A stretch of DNA of 64,000 nucleotides from positions 447,711-511,710 of the forward strand of contig NZ_SOCA01000002.1 in NCBI RefSeq assembly GCF_004364345.1. Reading direction: 5' to 3'. The notes below the pieces were generated by a model that saw only the letters and a program-made list of their open reading frames with translations, was not told where the DNA came from and did no database searches. The position numbers and the translations under genes are program-made. Source of the stretch: Prosthecobacter fusiformis (GTDB lineage Bacteria > Verrucomicrobiota > Verrucomicrobiia > Verrucomicrobiales > Verrucomicrobiaceae). Positions 48,980 to 56,050 of this stretch are shown here, one piece after another; the stretch's first letter is position 1; each line of letters starts with the position of its first letter.

Positions 48980-49235
48980 GAAAACGAAATTAATCCCCAT
49001 CCGGTCCTTGAGCCTGCCATTTTAGAACCTCTCGCCTCACCATAAAAACCATGATTCACTTTTCGGCAGAGGGGCGGCATAGAAGTGTCACGTGCCAAGT
49101 CCGCGAGGCGTCTCTGGCATGATGAAAGAGCGTCCTGCCACCCTCTCTGTCCAGCCCCTAACGACCTTGATCAGGTTTGAATCTCATGTTGACGCCAGAC
49201 ATTCAAGATCGTTTAACTACGTAACTTTGTTTCCG

Positions 49236-50081
49236 ATGCATTTGTCTCCTCTCGCTGCGGTGTCCGGCCTTCAGTTTGGGCTAGAAATTATTTCTGTGCC
49301 CAGCCTCGTCATCGCAGGTCTGCTGGCCTTATTTTCAATGATCAGTTGGACGGTACTGCTGGTGAAGTGGCATCTGCTGGCGCAGGCGAGGCGGGCGAAC
49401 AATGTTTTCATGGGGAAGTTCCGTGAGAGCGCGCATCCGCTGGCGCTTTACCTGACGCGGGAACGAGTGGCGCTGTCCCCGATGTATCATGTGTATCATG
49501 AGGCCAGCCGTGAGCTTGCGTTTTATCTGGTAGGTGAAGAGGAGCCAGGCCGGACTTTCAACAGCAGGCTACAAGGGGCGGGGCGCATCACCTCCTCGCA
49601 AATGAGTGCGGTACAGAATGCAATGGAGCGGGCAGTGGTGACAGCCGCCACGCATGCGGAGGCCAAGCTGGGACTGATGGCGACGGCTGTGGCGGTGGCT
49701 CCTTTTCTGGGGCTGCTGGGAACGGTGTGGGGGCTGCTGGATGTCTTTGCCCTGCTGGCGCAGACGGAGGGGGAGGCGACGATGACGGATCTGGCTCCGG
49801 GAGTTTGCTCAGCCCTGCTGACCACGTTGCTGGCGCTGTTTGTGACGATACCCAGCCTGCTGGCCTATAATTTCCTGGTCGCGAAGATTCGCAGTCTGAT
49901 CATCCGGCTGGATAACTTTGCCAATGAACTGAGCGGGGTACTGGACCGGCAGTTTGTGGATCATCGCAGCCCGGATGAGGGGCTGCCAAGTCTCGGGGCG
50001 ATGGGGGCACCGACGATGCCTGGCTTTAGCAATCCGCCGACCCAATCCCTGGTGCCCGCGAGCAAATCCTCCATCCCATGA
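49236..50081 (+). CDS. MotA/TolQ/ExbB proton-channel protein
   Basis: 281 residues from the ATG at 49236 (MHLSPLAAVSGLQFG). Three membrane helices fit the family: about 15-45, then a pair after GLMATAVAVAPFLGLLGTVWGLLDVF and ALLTTLLALFVTIPSLLAYNF. The long cytoplasmic loop lies between the first and second. It uses the proton gradient to drive the Tol-type partner proteins across the cell envelope. It overlaps exbD/tolR by four bases (ATGA). The operon context favours tolQ over exbB. Confidence 0.9.
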   Translation: MHLSPLAAVSGLQFGLEIISVPSLVIAGLLALFSMISWTVLLVKWHLLAQARRANNVFMGKFRESAHPLALYLTRERVALSPMYHVYHEASRELAFYLVGEEEPGRTFNSRLQGAGRITSSQMSAVQNAMERAVVTAATHAEAKLGLMATAVAVAPFLGLLGTVWGLLDVFALLAQTEGEATMTDLAPGVCSALLTTLLALFVTIPSLLAYNFLVAKIRSLIIRLDNFANELSGVLDRQFVDHRSPDEGLPSLGAMGAPTMPGFSNPPTQSLVPASKSSIP

Positions 50082-50503
50082 AGCGTGCCTCTCAGCGGCA
50101 TCTGCCGCTTTACATGAGCCAGGTGAGCATCACCGCCCTACTGGATCTGGTGCTGGTGCTGCTCCTTGTTTTCGTGGTGGCGGTGCCCATTTTTCGGCGT
50201 GAAAAACCGGCCGGATCAGCCGACGTCCAGACTGTATTGCCCACGGAACCCAAGGGGCCTGCGACGCAGGTGGAACTGAACATTCAGCCGGATGAAAGCA
50301 TCCTGCTGGATGGACGAAAAGTAAGCGGGGCGGAACTGCTTCCGGAGTTGAAGAAGCTTCTCGTGGCTCAGCCGGAATTAGGGGTGGTGGTGAAGATGCC
50401 TGCGAACTTTGCAGCAGGTCCTCTAGCCCGGCTGATGGATGAAATGAACCGGGCTGGTGTTCGTCATACGGCCGTGGAGGTGGTGGACGCCAAGAAACCC
50501 TGA
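50078..50503 (+). CDS. ExbD/TolR biopolymer transport protein
   Basis: 141 residues with one N-terminal helix. The conserved aspartate lies in the helix SITALLDLVLVLLLVFVVAVPIF, and the periplasmic domain has the QVELNIQPDESILLDGRKVS pattern. It forms the stator with the TolQ/ExbB-like channel. It starts inside the channel gene's stop codon and is followed after 14 bases by the TonB/TolA-like gene. Confidence 0.92.
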   Translation: MKRASQRHLPLYMSQVSITALLDLVLVLLLVFVVAVPIFRREKPAGSADVQTVLPTEPKGPATQVELNIQPDESILLDGRKVSGAELLPELKKLLVAQPELGVVVKMPANFAAGPLARLMDEMNRAGVRHTAVEVVDAKKP

Positions 50504-50517
50504 GGTCCTTTCTGCGT

Positions 50518-51345
50518 ATGCCACTCGCCCCCAAGCAACCGCCCCTGGAACCTGTCGCCGCTGTGTTTTTCGGCGTACTGTTGCTTCATGGACTGGGTGG
50601 GGCGCTTATTTGGGGCATGCTGCCATTGTGGCAGATGGAACGACCTCATCCAGAACCTGTGGGGCTGCCACAGGATGGGCGATACTGGTTTTCCCCGGCG
50701 GATTATCAAATGCCGAGCTTGAAACTGGAGGCTCCATCGGAGGTGACTGGCACAACAGTTCCTCCACCTGCGGCTTCTCCCGTCCCGGCTGCGGCGGCTG
50801 TACCTGCGCCTGTAGTTGCAAAAGAGGAGCCTAAACCGACTGCGGTGAAAGATGTGCCGAGCCTGCTGGCGGATACACCGCTGGTGCATCCGGCTGGCCC
50901 GACGGTGGAAACCCGGGCCACGAGTAAAGTGATCACTCTTTCTCCCATGCACGATACCAGAGATGGTCTGAGCCCGAATGGCGATACAGCGATGACGATG
51001 ATGGACGTGGTGAAGCAGAAAAAATCGGAAGCAGAGGCGAAGCAGGCTGCAGGGGGCGCGGACATGGATCCGGTATTGAAAGCTCTCCAGGCTGGTTTGA
51101 ACAAGCAATGGAATGCGCCGCTGATCAGCGAAGTGCCGGTGCTGCAACGGGATGCGCGGCTGGCCATCAGCATTGGCCGCGATGGGGGAATCCTGGAGAC
51201 AAAGATGACCAAATCCTCCGGTTCGACCCTTTTAGATAAGTCCGTCATGGCGGCGGCGGACGAATTAAAAAAGATTTCAGAGTCTCTTCCTGCAAGTTTC
51301 CCAAAAGACCGCTACACTGTGGAAGTAAACTTCCACATCGAGTAA
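50518..51345 (+). CDS. TonB/TolA-like energy transducer
   Basis: 275 residues: N-terminal helix (PVAAVFFGVLLLHGLGGALIW), a proline/alanine-rich spacer (about 80-130), and a C-terminal TonB/TolA-like domain (LKALQAGLNKQWNAPLIS; DARLAISIGRDGGILETKM; SGSTLLDKSVMAAADEL). It spans the periplasm to link the TolQR motor with TolB/Pal. Its stop abuts the tolB start (TAA directly followed by ATG). Confidence 0.8.
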   Translation: MPLAPKQPPLEPVAAVFFGVLLLHGLGGALIWGMLPLWQMERPHPEPVGLPQDGRYWFSPADYQMPSLKLEAPSEVTGTTVPPPAASPVPAAAAVPAPVVAKEEPKPTAVKDVPSLLADTPLVHPAGPTVETRATSKVITLSPMHDTRDGLSPNGDTAMTMMDVVKQKKSEAEAKQAAGGADMDPVLKALQAGLNKQWNAPLISEVPVLQRDARLAISIGRDGGILETKMTKSSGSTLLDKSVMAAADELKKISESLPASFPKDRYTVEVNFHIE

Positions 51346-52542
51346 ATGACCGGCCCGCGTATCCTTATCATAGTCCTCCTGCTGTTTTTGCAGCCAACGG
51401 TCTATGCCGTGACGTGGCCATCTTGGTTGAGCACGTCCAGGGGTAAAAAGCAGGTAGTGTCGCTGCCGCAGCGCAAGCTGCAACTGGGGGATTTCACCGG
51501 AGGAACGGGTGCGAGTGCCAAAAAGACGCTGGGGGCTGAGCTTACTAGTTCGCGTGAATTTCAACTGACGGAAGAAGGGGCCGAGTATGCCGTAAGCGGC
51601 TCCTCCGTGGGTGGGCGCGTTACGGGACGACTCACACGGGCAGATGGGAAACTGGTTTTTGAGCGTACCTATGCAGCTCCTGGACTGGATGAAAATCTGA
51701 GTGCCCTGGCGGACGACATCATCTTTGCGGCCACAGGAAAACCGGGGCTTTCCACCAGTCGGCTAGTGTTTGTGAGTGATCGCTCCGGCACGAAGCAGAT
51801 TTACCGCTGTGATGTACAGGGCAAGGAGATCCAGCAGATCACGCATCACCCTTACGGAGCGGTTTCGCCCAGCTTGTCGCCAGATGGAGGAGCTATCGCA
51901 TACACGGCTTATCAAGCTGGTTTCCCCATCGTGCAGGTGCTGGATCTGGGGCTGGGATGGGAGCGCACGGTGACGGATACCGCTGGGACCAGCTTTGGTG
52001 CCTCCTTTTCCCCAGATGGGCAACGATTGGCGCTGGTAATGAGTTTTCTAGGCAATCCCGAGATCTTTGTGACGGATCTGGGTACGAACACGGCGGGGTG
52101 TATCAGCGATACTTTGGGAGCGCCCAGCAGCCCCTCCTGGCATCCGGACGGAAAGCAGATCATCTTTGCGGATGACCGGGGCAGGGGACCCCGGCTGTAT
52201 GTGGCTGAGGTGCCTGAAAAGGAGAAGACGGAGGCGAAGCTCTTTCTGTGGCGTGCAGGTCCCTCCTTTTGTACCGATCCTGAATTTTCTCCCGATGGGC
52301 GCATGGTAGCCTTCACGGCAGGACGGGGAGAGGATGCGGCTGTCATTATCAAGGATTACCCCCAGGGGAAGTCACAGGTCATCCAGTCCGGCGGTGCCCA
52401 GCATCCGTCCTGGAGCCCAAACGGCCGCTACCTGTGCTATACCCAGCATGATACTCTGTATGTGCATGACCTGCATACCTCCCAGCGCCGTGCGGTGCTG
52501 ACGCGATACGGTGCTATTTCTGAACCCCGATGGATGCGATGA
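51346..52542 (+). CDS. tolB: TolB-like periplasmic beta-propeller protein
   Basis: 398 residues with a signal peptide (ILIIVLLLFLQPTVYA). The N-terminal domain precedes a six-bladed propeller made of WD40-like PD40 repeats: SRLVFVSDRSGTKQIYRCD, AVSPSLSPDGGAIAYTAY, GTSFGASFSPDGQRLALVM, APSSPSWHPDGKQIIFADD and CTDPEFSPDGRMVAFTAG. TolB binds Pal and maintains the outer membrane during division. It overlaps the pal-like gene by four bases. Confidence 0.92.
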   Translation: MTGPRILIIVLLLFLQPTVYAVTWPSWLSTSRGKKQVVSLPQRKLQLGDFTGGTGASAKKTLGAELTSSREFQLTEEGAEYAVSGSSVGGRVTGRLTRADGKLVFERTYAAPGLDENLSALADDIIFAATGKPGLSTSRLVFVSDRSGTKQIYRCDVQGKEIQQITHHPYGAVSPSLSPDGGAIAYTAYQAGFPIVQVLDLGLGWERTVTDTAGTSFGASFSPDGQRLALVMSFLGNPEIFVTDLGTNTAGCISDTLGAPSSPSWHPDGKQIIFADDRGRGPRLYVAEVPEKEKTEAKLFLWRAGPSFCTDPEFSPDGRMVAFTAGRGEDAAVIIKDYPQGKSQVIQSGGAQHPSWSPNGRYLCYTQHDTLYVHDLHTSQRRAVLTRYGAISEPRWMR

Positions 52543-52997
52543 GATCTGCCTTAATCTATAGCATCGCCGGGGCGCTCACCCTGTGCAGTTGTACGACAGT
52601 GACCTCCGTTTTTCAGGAAAAGGAGGCGGACATCGTCTTTGCCCTGGGTTCACGAGAGGGATTCGTCAGCCCGATGACGGCCTCTTTAAAACCGGTGTGT
52701 CCGGCGCTGGAATTTTCCGGGACGAGCTATTCGCTTCATGGGGCGCATCAAAGGACACTCCAGGGGCTGGCTACGGCCTGGCCGGAGAGCAAACCGCGAT
52801 TTTTGATCGCCGGATATGCGCCGCATGACTTGCCTGAAGACTATGCCCGTGCGCTCTCTGAACGCCGCGCACAAGCAGTGCGGCAGGTCCTCATTGAGGC
52901 GGGTGTCGAAGCTGCCAATCTCCAGACGATTGGTTTTGGAAACGACTCTGCACCCTCCGGCCCCAGCACAGGAGTCGTGGTGATCTACAAGCAGTGA
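52539..52997 (+). CDS. Pal-like OmpA-domain lipoprotein
   Basis: 152 residues from the ATG at 52539 that overlaps the tolB stop (ATGA); an ATG at 52530 would add three residues. The signal ends in a possible lipobox, LCSC, giving Cys17-TTVTS. The C-terminal half looks like a reduced OmpA domain (RALSERRAQAVRQVLIEAGVEAANLQTIGFG), the helix-and-strand end that binds peptidoglycan. The N-terminal half is atypical for Pal and has no clear Pal motif. Position at the end of a tol operon is the main support. Confidence 0.75.
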   Translation: MRSALIYSIAGALTLCSCTTVTSVFQEKEADIVFALGSREGFVSPMTASLKPVCPALEFSGTSYSLHGAHQRTLQGLATAWPESKPRFLIAGYAPHDLPEDYARALSERRAQAVRQVLIEAGVEAANLQTIGFGNDSAPSGPSTGVVVIYKQ

Positions 52998-53741: not shown

Positions 53742-53936
53742 ATGAATGATTTTATCCACTCCGTCTTTAATAATCGCGCCAGAGCTTTGCTGAAGCTGGG
53801 CCTGTCCCTGACTGTTGGGGTGGGATCGGTGCTAATGTTGATGAGTTGCAGCAGTGCCAAAAAGGAGGCTCAAAAACGGCAGCAGGAGATGGAATTGCAA
53901 ACCTGGCAGGCAGGGTCATGTCTCCCGGAGATCTAA
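53742..53936 (+). CDS. Short putative lipoprotein
   Basis: 64 residues with a long signal and the lipobox LMSC-SS (LMLMSCSSAKKEAQ), followed by only about 30 charged residues. Small lipoproteins of this shape are common in gram-negative genomes, but no family is recognised. It lies 70 bases before the histidine kinase. Confidence 0.45.
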   Translation: MNDFIHSVFNNRARALLKLGLSLTVGVGSVLMLMSCSSAKKEAQKRQQEMELQTWQAGSCLPEI

Positions 53937-54007
53937 CGAGCGGGGGATAAATAAGATCCGTCCTCACAGGGTATTTGACGAACGGACGCTACCGACGACG
54001 ATGGCGG

Positions 54008-56050
54008 ATGCTGGAACTCTCCAAACTCTTCGACACCACAGGCTTTCCGCCCCGCTGGCATTGTGGGAGCTGGAGTGATTTCCATGGCTGGGTACATGTC
54101 GTTTCTGATCTGGCGATTTTTGGCGCTTATGCGGCCATTCCTATTTCCATCACGTCCTATGTGATGCTGAAAAAGCAGGATGTGGCCTTCCCCCGGCTAT
54201 ACTGGCTTTTTGCGGGATTTATTCTTTCCTGTGGGCTGACGCATTTGGTGGAGGCGACGCTGTTCTGGCATCCCTGGTATCGCTTTTCGGGATTAATGAA
54301 GGTGATCACGGCCGGCGTTTCATGGTTCACGGTCGTGGCAATGATCCGTGCTCTGCCAATGGCGATGACGATCCCGGGGGCGGCGAAGTTGAACCGGCAG
54401 CTCAGCGCGGAAATCGTGGAGCATAAGCGCGCCGAGGTGGCGCTGCAGGCGGCATCGGCCCGGTTGGCGCTGGCGATGGACCATTCGGGTCTGGGTAACT
54501 GGAACTGGGATGCGGAATCGGATGCGTGTTATTTTTCCAGGCGTGCGGCAGCCATTTTTGGCATGCCTGCGGAGACTGCAATCCCATGGAATCAAGTGCT
54601 GGAGCACATCCATGGGGAAGACAGGGAAGGAGTAAACGAAGGATTGCGCAAGGCGGTGGCGCAAAGGGCCATTTTTGACTGTGACTTCCGCTTTCAACGA
54701 TCTGGAGGCACCGAGGTATGGGTCTCGGCCAAGGGGCGTGCGGAGGACGACGGGCAGGGCGGGCCTATCCATGTCAGCGGCATTATCGCTGATATCACAG
54801 AGCGAAAAACGGGGGACAAAATCCGTGAGGAGCTACTGGTGCGCGAGAGCCAGGCCCGGCAGGAGGCCGAGGATGCGAACCGGATGAAGGATGAATTTTT
54901 AGCGGTGCTATCCCATGAACTGAGGACACCGCTGAATGCGATCTTGGGGTGGGCCGGAATGTTGCGGGCCAGCCACATGGATGAGGGTGAACTGACGGAG
55001 GGGCTAGAGGTGATCGAGCGCAACACGCTGGCCCAGGCAAAGCTGGTGGAGGATCTGCTGGATATGAGCCGGATTATCGCGGGCAAGGTGCGGCTGGATG
55101 TGCAGACGGTGGATCTAAGTGCGATCATCAATGCCTCCATAGATGCGGTCAGGCCGCAGGTGGAAACCAAGAATCTGAACATCGTCAGCATCCTGGATCC
55201 CATGGCCGGACCCGTGCGGGGAGATCCGGCGCGGCTTCAGCAGGTGCTTTGGAATCTGCTGACCAATGCGGTGAAATTCACCGAGCGTGGCGGCAAGATC
55301 GAGGTGGCATTGGAGCGGGTGAATTCACATGTCGAAATCACGGTCAGTGATAACGGTGTTGGCATTGAGCCGGATTTCCTGCCGCATGTATTTGACCGCT
55401 TCAGGCAGGCGGATTCCTCCATGACGAGACGGCACGGTGGCCTGGGTTTAGGCTTGGCGATCGTGAAAAATCTTGTGGAACTGCATGGCGGCACGATCAA
55501 TGCCAAGAGCGGCGGTCGAAACCGTGGCACAAGTTTCCGCATCGCCTTGCCCCTGCCTATTACCCATGGTGGTTCACACTCAGCCACTGGCATTCATCCG
55601 GCCACGGTGGTGCCGACGGAGTTGTCCGAATTTGAAAATCCAGATTTGACCGGGATTCACATTTTGGCGGTGGACGATGAGCGCGATAGCCTGGAGATGG
55701 TCCGCCGCCTGCTGGAAAACAAGGGCGCAGAGGTGACCATGGCCAGTTCTGGGGAGGAAGCTTTGGAAAAACTGGCCAAGAATCCTGCCTTCGATCTGAT
55801 GATCAGCGACATCGGTATGCCGGTGATGAATGGCTATGAACTCATCACGACAATCCGTGGAATGAAGCCGAATGAGGGAGGTCAAATCACAGCCATTGCG
55901 CTCACAGCTTTTGCTCGTTCTGAGGATCGGAGACGTGCGATGACAGCGGGCTTTGACACTTTTTTATCCAAGCCCGTGGAGACGAATGAACTGCTGGCCG
56001 TGGTGCATCGTTGTGTGACTAGACACCGTCAAAGCGGCAGCGTGGAATAA
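54008..56050 (+). CDS. Hybrid histidine kinase with ethylene-receptor-type sensor
   Basis: 680 residues from the ATG at 54008 (MLELSKLFDTTGFPP); a TTG at 53975 is less likely. Order: three membrane helices (about 25-125), PAS (about 155-280), HisKA with the phosphoacceptor H303 (LSHELRTPLNAILGW), HATPase_c (about 400-515; GLGLAIVKNLVELHGG) and REC with phospho-Asp D601 (LMISDIGMPVMNGYEL). The sensor matches plant ETR1: D34, Y41, I44 and P45 with the spacing of D25/Y32/I35/P36, and C75 and H79 (CGLTH) in the place of the copper ligands C65/H69. It may bind copper and ethylene or another small ligand. No dedicated response regulator is adjacent. Confidence 0.92.
   Translation: MLELSKLFDTTGFPPRWHCGSWSDFHGWVHVVSDLAIFGAYAAIPISITSYVMLKKQDVAFPRLYWLFAGFILSCGLTHLVEATLFWHPWYRFSGLMKVITAGVSWFTVVAMIRALPMAMTIPGAAKLNRQLSAEIVEHKRAEVALQAASARLALAMDHSGLGNWNWDAESDACYFSRRAAAIFGMPAETAIPWNQVLEHIHGEDREGVNEGLRKAVAQRAIFDCDFRFQRSGGTEVWVSAKGRAEDDGQGGPIHVSGIIADITERKTGDKIREELLVRESQARQEAEDANRMKDEFLAVLSHELRTPLNAILGWAGMLRASHMDEGELTEGLEVIERNTLAQAKLVEDLLDMSRIIAGKVRLDVQTVDLSAIINASIDAVRPQVETKNLNIVSILDPMAGPVRGDPARLQQVLWNLLTNAVKFTERGGKIEVALERVNSHVEITVSDNGVGIEPDFLPHVFDRFRQADSSMTRRHGGLGLGLAIVKNLVELHGGTINAKSGGRNRGTSFRIALPLPITHGGSHSATGIHPATVVPTELSEFENPDLTGIHILAVDDERDSLEMVRRLLENKGAEVTMASSGEEALEKLAKNPAFDLMISDIGMPVMNGYELITTIRGMKPNEGGQITAIALTAFARSEDRRRAMTAGFDTFLSKPVETNELLAVVHRCVTRHRQSGSVE

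Follow-up and report, generated by a model that had tools for sequence, protein, structure and literature searches.

A probable ethylene-receptor-type hybrid histidine kinase of Prosthecobacter fusiformis and its place in the RWxCGxW half of the ETR1_N family

The window, a stretch of 64,000 nucleotides of Prosthecobacter fusiformis DNA, carries at positions 54008..56050 (+) an open reading frame for a hybrid histidine kinase of 680 aa with the Pfam domain order ETR1_N-PAS-HisKA-HATPase-REC, referred to below as the window kinase. It is interpreted, at a probability of roughly 0.7, as a copper-dependent sensor kinase of the ethylene-receptor type, and its residues make the sensing of ethylene likely. 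The bacterial ethylene-receptor family is already known; what is new is the place of the window kinase in a half of this family that is marked by RWxCGxW...HGW.

An alternative TTG start lies upstream at 53975, and aligned relatives favour the ATG at 54008. A profile search of the 5.83-Mb genome at E ≤ 0.001 returned the window kinase as the sole ETR1_N match (E 1.2e-29), and none of 14 control genomes was matched at the same threshold. PF25487 (ETR1_N), the ethylene-binding domain, covers aa 26-121 (54083..54370, +) with an E-value of 8.6e-29 and 100.1 bits against a cut-off of 27, a sequence match far beyond chance. In this profile check, which had been proposed with the original prediction, the ethylene domain scored and no competing Pfam family did so on aa 26-121 at E ≤ 0.001. 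The domain is preceded by the N-terminal motif PPRWHCGSW (aa 14-22; 54047..54073, +), which contains C19 and W22, stands ahead of helix 1 according to sequence, alignment and model, and is presumably located on the outer side of the membrane. Downstream follow a PAS domain (PAS_3, PF08447, E 1e-12; aa 175-260; 54530..54787, +), HisKA (PF00512, E 2.2e-16; aa 293-358; 54884..55081, +) with the phospho-acceptor H303 in SHELRTP, HATPase_c (PF02518, E 1e-32; aa 405-517; 55220..55558, +) with N and G boxes, and REC (Response_reg, PF00072, E 6.4e-25; aa 552-666; 55661..56005, +) with the phospho-acceptor D601 and K655. The key residues of kinase and receiver (H303, the N and G boxes, D601, K655) are intact, and an ETR1-type sensor on a complete hybrid kinase is supported by these matches. 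No GAF match was found in the window kinase with Pfam at E ≤ 0.001, PAS being in its place. The window kinase was also matched by 157 NCBIfam families, and the 25 listed among them are kinase or regulator models, every one under its cut-off.

All seven ethylene-binding residues of ETR1 are present in the alignment, namely D34 (D25 in ETR1), Y41 (Y32), I44 (I35), P45 (P36), I72 (I62), C75 (C65) and H79 (H69). The spacing that had been predicted, D34-x6-Y41-x2-I44-P45 together with C75/H79 and with I72 three residues before the Cys, was recovered at every claimed position. K98 aligns with K91, the output-linked helix-3 Lys of ETR1, and the N-terminal C19-x2-W22 is also present; neither figured in the original prediction, nor did the PAS domain or H303, D601 and K655. 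The one extra residue that had been predicted is there as well: D34 to C75 spans 41 residues, compared with 40 for D25 to C65 in ETR1, and the alignment places it where helix 1 gives way to the loop behind it. The identity of all seven ETR1 residues reportedly goes back to Wang et al. 2006. The seven are described as required for ethylene binding by ETR1 (PMC11819568, PMC6682694); C65, D25 and H69 are named in the excerpt of PMC11819568, where K91 is given as the helix-3 partner of D25. The ETR1_N score alone was rejected as proof of a working site, since L022, at 52 bits, also exceeds the cut-off yet lacks the copper residues; the window kinase passes the residue check that L022 fails.

The sensor was modelled with AlphaFold2 from 21 aligned sensor domains (the window kinase and L028-L047), with a mean pLDDT of 86.2 and a pTM of 0.65. 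Helices in the model span aa 2-8, 24-54, 62-85, 91-120 and 123-150, three long ones (24-54, 62-85 and 91-120) being predicted ahead of the soluble part. By alignment and model, predicted helix 1 (54077..54169, +) holds D34, Y41, I44 and P45, predicted helix 2 (54191..54262, +) holds I72, C75 and H79, and predicted helix 3 (54278..54367, +) holds K98; the helix at aa 123-150 (54374..54457, +; model) is predicted to lead to the PAS domain. The profile match, seven of seven residues, K98 and the three-helix model agree with the intact ETR1-type sensor of the original prediction. On our reading of the model, D34, C75, H79 and K98 would sit 10, 10, 6 and 7 residues from the same-side ends of helices 1, 2, 2 and 3, respectively, and the side that bears them would be the outside if the N-terminus is out. 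This placement agrees with the model of the copper site in ETR1, in which copper stays on C65 and H69 and makes infrequent contacts to D25 (PMC6586836). Comparisons with solved structures were uninformative: at E ≤ 10 a phmmer search with the sensor yielded just two TrkH matches, each with an E-value of 0.12, and Foldseek of the model against the PDB gave nothing at E ≤ 0.001.

Counted at E ≤ 0.001, ETR1_N is present in 24 of 387 genomes of Verrucomicrobiota (23 of them over the cut-off), 25 of 246 of Planctomycetota, 18 of 296 of Bacteroidota and 63 of 244 of the cyanobacterial phylum including Melainabacteria, with phylum labels (e.g. 'Cyano') that follow the named record of each sampled phylum (Gemmataceae, Flavipsychrobacter, Melainabacteria). 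The original prediction had placed such sensors in plants and some cyanobacteria; these hosts stand, but the spread was understated, as AzoEtr1 of Azospirillum binds ethylene and ETR1_N occurs in several phyla. The gene is patchy in distribution. It was found in 14 of 68 genomes of the host's family, and any ETR1_N match in 8 of 48 genomes of its genus (counted from the family list), with the window's type in G000, G187, G196 and G405 and the other type in G404, G409, G417 and G428. G196 has a full-length orthologue with REC at 61% identity, and three genomes of another genus, among them Verrucomicrobium sp. BvORR106 and BvORR034, have such orthologues at 49-54%; the orthologue of Prosthecobacter VE4, also with REC, is split over two reading frames (61% and 55% identity), and that of BvORR034 is likewise broken into two frames. 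Among plasmids, 18 records contain ETR1_N, 7 of them from Azospirillum, and no match was found in the phage collection; plasmid carriage is a possible route for the scattered distribution. The ETR1_N proteins L048, L049, L052, L053 and L055 are located on large plasmids of cyanobacteria and alphaproteobacteria, and the plasmids of L049 and L053 were typed as conjugative.

The family is divided into two halves. A domain tree was built from 126 rows after omission of seven long-branched rows (L078, L106, L111, L016, L051, L004, L094), six duplicates and five rows that were weak or partial; one of its branches, supported at 100/99, separates precisely the 58 rows that have Gly at position 20 from all others. 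Almost the same partition, at support 98, came out of a quick tree with 135 rows, and the split survives deletion of columns 8-28, motif included, with 96 and 92 on the two nearest branches. Finer branching is unsure because the domain offers only 115 columns, and the tree, being unrooted, does not tell which half is older. For the counts the halves were defined by Gly at position 20 and identical rows were counted once, which gave 131 distinct rows, 59 in the window's half and 72 in the other; by this rule L106, put in the window's half by the 135-row tree, went to the other half, and L015, which lacks the full motif, went to the window's half. The weak or partial rows L022, L101, L102, L107 and L124 and the duplicates L064 and L075-L077 were left out of the 135-row tree and the counts, and L023 and L024 were not recovered by our own profile.

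The window kinase belongs to the half marked RWxCGxW...HGW; it carries RWHCGSW and lacks the HGxC[YFL]xW motif typical of the other half, which holds the AzoEtr1 orthologue (L048, L055), the 33 cyanobacterial rows sampled and the row of ETR1. L048 of A. brasilense was taken as the orthologue of AzoEtr1 because residue numbers agree, and it is 38% identical to the window kinase sensor over 117 residues. The exact combination R16 W17 C19 G20 was observed in 23 of 40 rows of Verrucomicrobiota, 22 of 31 of Planctomycetota and 10 of 23 of Bacteroidota, as well as in one Melainabacterium and one unclassified bacterium; it occurs in none of the 33 other rows of the cyanobacterial phylum (30 of the 33 being loci of best-scoring matches, with weaker copies unsampled) and in none of five Pseudomonadota rows. 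At 14 positions (D9, T10, P14, R16, W17, G20, H26, G27, position 31, A83, F86, R92, W106 and V109) one residue is found in more than 70% of the window's half and less than 20% of the other. Ile is typical of the window's half at position 31, where the window kinase has Val, and V109 aligns with A102 of ETR1, the A102T change of which is the etr1-2 allele. No paper on ethylene receptors of Verrucomicrobiota or Planctomycetota was found in the literature search, earlier mention, also of the two halves, being possible in surveys, and a biochemical test of any member of the window's half was likewise not found in the literature. It is conceivable, if rather unlikely, that the RWxCGxW...HGW half, whose members come from Verrucomicrobiota, Planctomycetota, Bacteroidota and one Melainabacterium, represents another major branch of copper gas receptors, as deep as the cyanobacterial/plant branch and with its own outer-face motif and pocket residues, hence with a different ligand preference or sign of signalling.

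The well-supported split (100/99), the 14 distinguishing positions including V109 at ETR1 A102, and sampled hosts that include no cyanobacterium save one Melainabacterium are also consistent with the same fold and copper site serving another physiological ligand, in that the RWxCGxW half would sense a different small molecule that binds Cu(I), such as acetylene, CO, NO or another alkene, and would respond to ethylene, if at all, incidentally. Such a change of ligand is unlikely, however, given that all seven binding residues are retained by 50 of 59 distinct rows on the window's side of the split (55 of 72 on the other side) and given AzoEtr1, which is already far from plants and still binds ethylene (PMC11819568).

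C75 and H79 are both kept in 57 of 59 rows of the window's half and in 72 of 72 of the other, and C19 in 55 of 59 and 69 of 72, while W22 is present throughout the window's half (59 of 59) and in 63 of 72 rows of the other. At position 98, 49 of the 59 rows of the window's half have K, and 57 have either K or R. In this half the seven residues all rank among the 26 most conserved of 109 columns, and their rank sum was matched by 19 of 200,000 random column sets (0 of 200,000 in the other half), a descriptive result because the columns depend on one another and the family profile itself served to find most of the rows. The sensor domain of ETR1 binds Cu(I) very tightly, with a Kd of 1.3e-15 M (PMC6586836), and this value and the conserved C19, a Cys before helix 1, would suit a Cu(I) or redox sensor in which the C75/H79 site would signal copper or oxidation state without any gas being sensed in nature. 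Y41, I44, P45 and I72, which serve ethylene binding in ETR1 and are not named copper ligands, are however comparably conserved, and no copper gene is present among the nine neighbouring window proteins scanned, which makes a sensor of copper or redox state alone quite improbable.

One or more of the seven residues are missing in nine rows of the window's half (among them L015, L078 and L116) and in 17 of the other (among them L026, L027 and L140). The substitutions are H79 to Y in L015, C75 to S and H79 to Y in L078, and D34 to N in L116. Losses of this kind in relatives, the presence of a PAS domain and the patchy distribution could point to a sensor that was inherited but is disused, with the kinase answering through PAS alone; the window kinase has all seven residues, however, as do the full-length orthologues at 49-61% identity, and disuse is accordingly regarded as very improbable. 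D34 is also changed to N in L026 and L027, and these two, together with L015 and L078, are natural candidates for ligand-blind sensors, judging from the loss of the D25 or copper-ligand equivalent. In L058, L059, L061, L062 and L065 (other half, same genus/family) Pro is changed to Ser at the ETR1 P36 position and the other six are kept.

The genome has 90 REC matches, and the only one inside the window, C2:503371-503715 (window 55661-56005), is that of the kinase itself; the original prediction of a hybrid kinase with its own REC domain and no adjoining regulator was therefore correct. The nearest further REC matches downstream on the contig, C2:513289 and C2:516530, lie outside the window, and the nearest regulators downstream of the window each adjoin a kinase of their own, as read by eye from the ORFs. 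The sole Hpt match of the whole genome lies in a 682-aa ORF with REC that reads as a CheA-like protein, of which the Hpt and REC parts rest on profile matches; for this reason the Hpt profile revealed no classical hybrid phosphorelay partner. In the window's half, at least 47 of 59 proteins have HisKA, at least 47 HATPase_c and at least 12 REC, and in the other half at least 59 of 72 have HisKA, at least 55 HATPase_c, at least 18 REC and at least seven GAF, these being lower bounds because the 3' end of the frame lies inside the locus in only 46 of 59 and 33 of 72. By a crude motif scan, the next gene is receiver-like in 11 of 38 testable loci of the window's half (one of the 11, L028, being the kinase's own REC in another frame) and in 3 of 20 on the other side. 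G187, a genome of the same genus as the window, encodes a non-hybrid ETR1_N kinase of 389 aa that overlaps a REC-only gene of 145 aa, an arrangement comparable to that of AzoEtr1 with its downstream regulator gene. Planctomycete ETR1_N ORFs without kinase were seen at L038:5998-6570 (+), L091:1240-1851 (-) and L095:607-1179 (-); their frames end in a common REERMIELKREVNALLxELGR-like helix, and an ORF with PAS comes after each, in L038 also with HisKA and HATPase_c, an arrangement that is perhaps a two-protein receptor.

No ethylene or copper function was detected with Pfam among the nine neighbouring window proteins. When 15 window proteins were compared with 14 loci, several of them two fetches of one place, the matches beyond the kinase were scattered (ExbB-like, 36% over 86 aa in L156; bactofilin, 48% over 94 aa in L160; DUF1501, 36% over 176 aa in L032), so no gene partner can be inferred, and the gene arrangement of the window is absent around the full-length orthologues compared. 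An ORF of 64 aa with a lipobox-like LMSC (53742-53936, +) ends 71 bases before the kinase start, has no Pfam match and is possibly co-transcribed with the kinase. Genes for MotA_ExbB, ExbD, TonB_2, a PD40 beta-propeller (TolB-like) and OmpA (Pal-like) stand in a row at 49092-52997 (+) and are, from their domains, a Tol-Pal-like operon. One Cu-type P1B ATPase of the genome scores over its model cut-off and is a possible copper supplier; the support is weak because such an ATPase is over the cut-off in 13 of 14 control genomes.

If the window kinase is a copper-dependent sensor of the ethylene-receptor type, two copies would form a dimer in the inner membrane, the N-terminus lying outside and C19 perhaps serving as the link. 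Each copy would hold one Cu(I) on C75 and H79 of helix 2, residues that together with D34 and K98 would make up a polar network in the membrane's outer half, and a small unsaturated gas, most likely ethylene, would bind to the copper. The change would travel from helix 3 through the following helix and PAS to the HisKA/HATPase core and, whatever the sign of the response, would alter autophosphorylation of H303. Phosphate would then pass from H303 to D601 of the kinase's own REC, which might either hand it on or tune transfer to a regulator encoded elsewhere as the putative downstream partner. The half-specific residues at 14 positions, the patchy gene, the lack of ethylene or copper neighbours and of a phosphorelay partner in the searches described above speak against this explanation. 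Ethylene is a gas made by plants and many microbes, and the usual account treats its sensing as a trait that plants inherited from cyanobacteria. Should ethylene binding prove true, Prosthecobacter-type bacteria would also read this gas, as, by extension, would some planctomycetes and bacteroidetes, and any account of the receptor's origin would have to take in a second family branch.

Arabidopsis ETR1 has the same seven residues and K91, and like the window kinase a three-helix copper site. It is also a kinase with a receiver domain (PMC4972365), and has GAF where the window kinase has PAS. Two N-terminal Cys, C4 and C6, link the ETR1 dimer (PMC6586836), whereas SynEtr1 of Synechocystis and GeiEtr1 and GeiEtr2 of Geitlerinema have one Cys near the N-terminus (PMC6682694), as does the window kinase. 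Plant receptors signal mainly by a kinase-independent route and SynEtr1 by histidine kinase and phosphotransfer (PMC11819568). All seven residues are stated to be conserved in GeiEtr1 and GeiEtr2, as they are in the window kinase, and the domain accompanying the sensor differs, with a cyanobacteriochrome domain in SynEtr1, GAF in GeiEtr1, and PAS and PAC in GeiEtr2 (PMC6682694). All 33 sampled rows of their phylum besides the Melainabacterium are in the other half, the SynEtr1 and GeiEtr sequences themselves being outside the comparison.

Proteobacteria and cyanobacteria are spoken of in PMC7700396, and putative receptors are stated to occur in 'other bacterial phyla' (PMC11819568); receptors of fungi and other eukaryotes are treated in PMC5285503, PMC10452086 and PMC6944256, the available excerpts of which do not report Verrucomicrobiota or Planctomycetota. 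AzoEtr1 of Azospirillum brasilense binds ethylene, for which its first 130 residues suffice, and shares with the window kinase the order ETR1_N-PAS-histidine kinase (PMC11819568). Its D35/C75/H79/K98 (PMC11819568) correspond to D34/C75/H79/K98 in the window kinase, and one N-terminal Cys is found in both, at C20 in L048 (own count) and at C19 in the window kinase. No REC is described for AzoEtr1 in the excerpt of PMC11819568, where a separate regulator gene of 135 aa lies just downstream, whereas the receiver of the window kinase is fused. AzoEtr1 has the motif HGVCLFW and the window kinase RWHCGSW, and the two belong to opposite halves of the tree.
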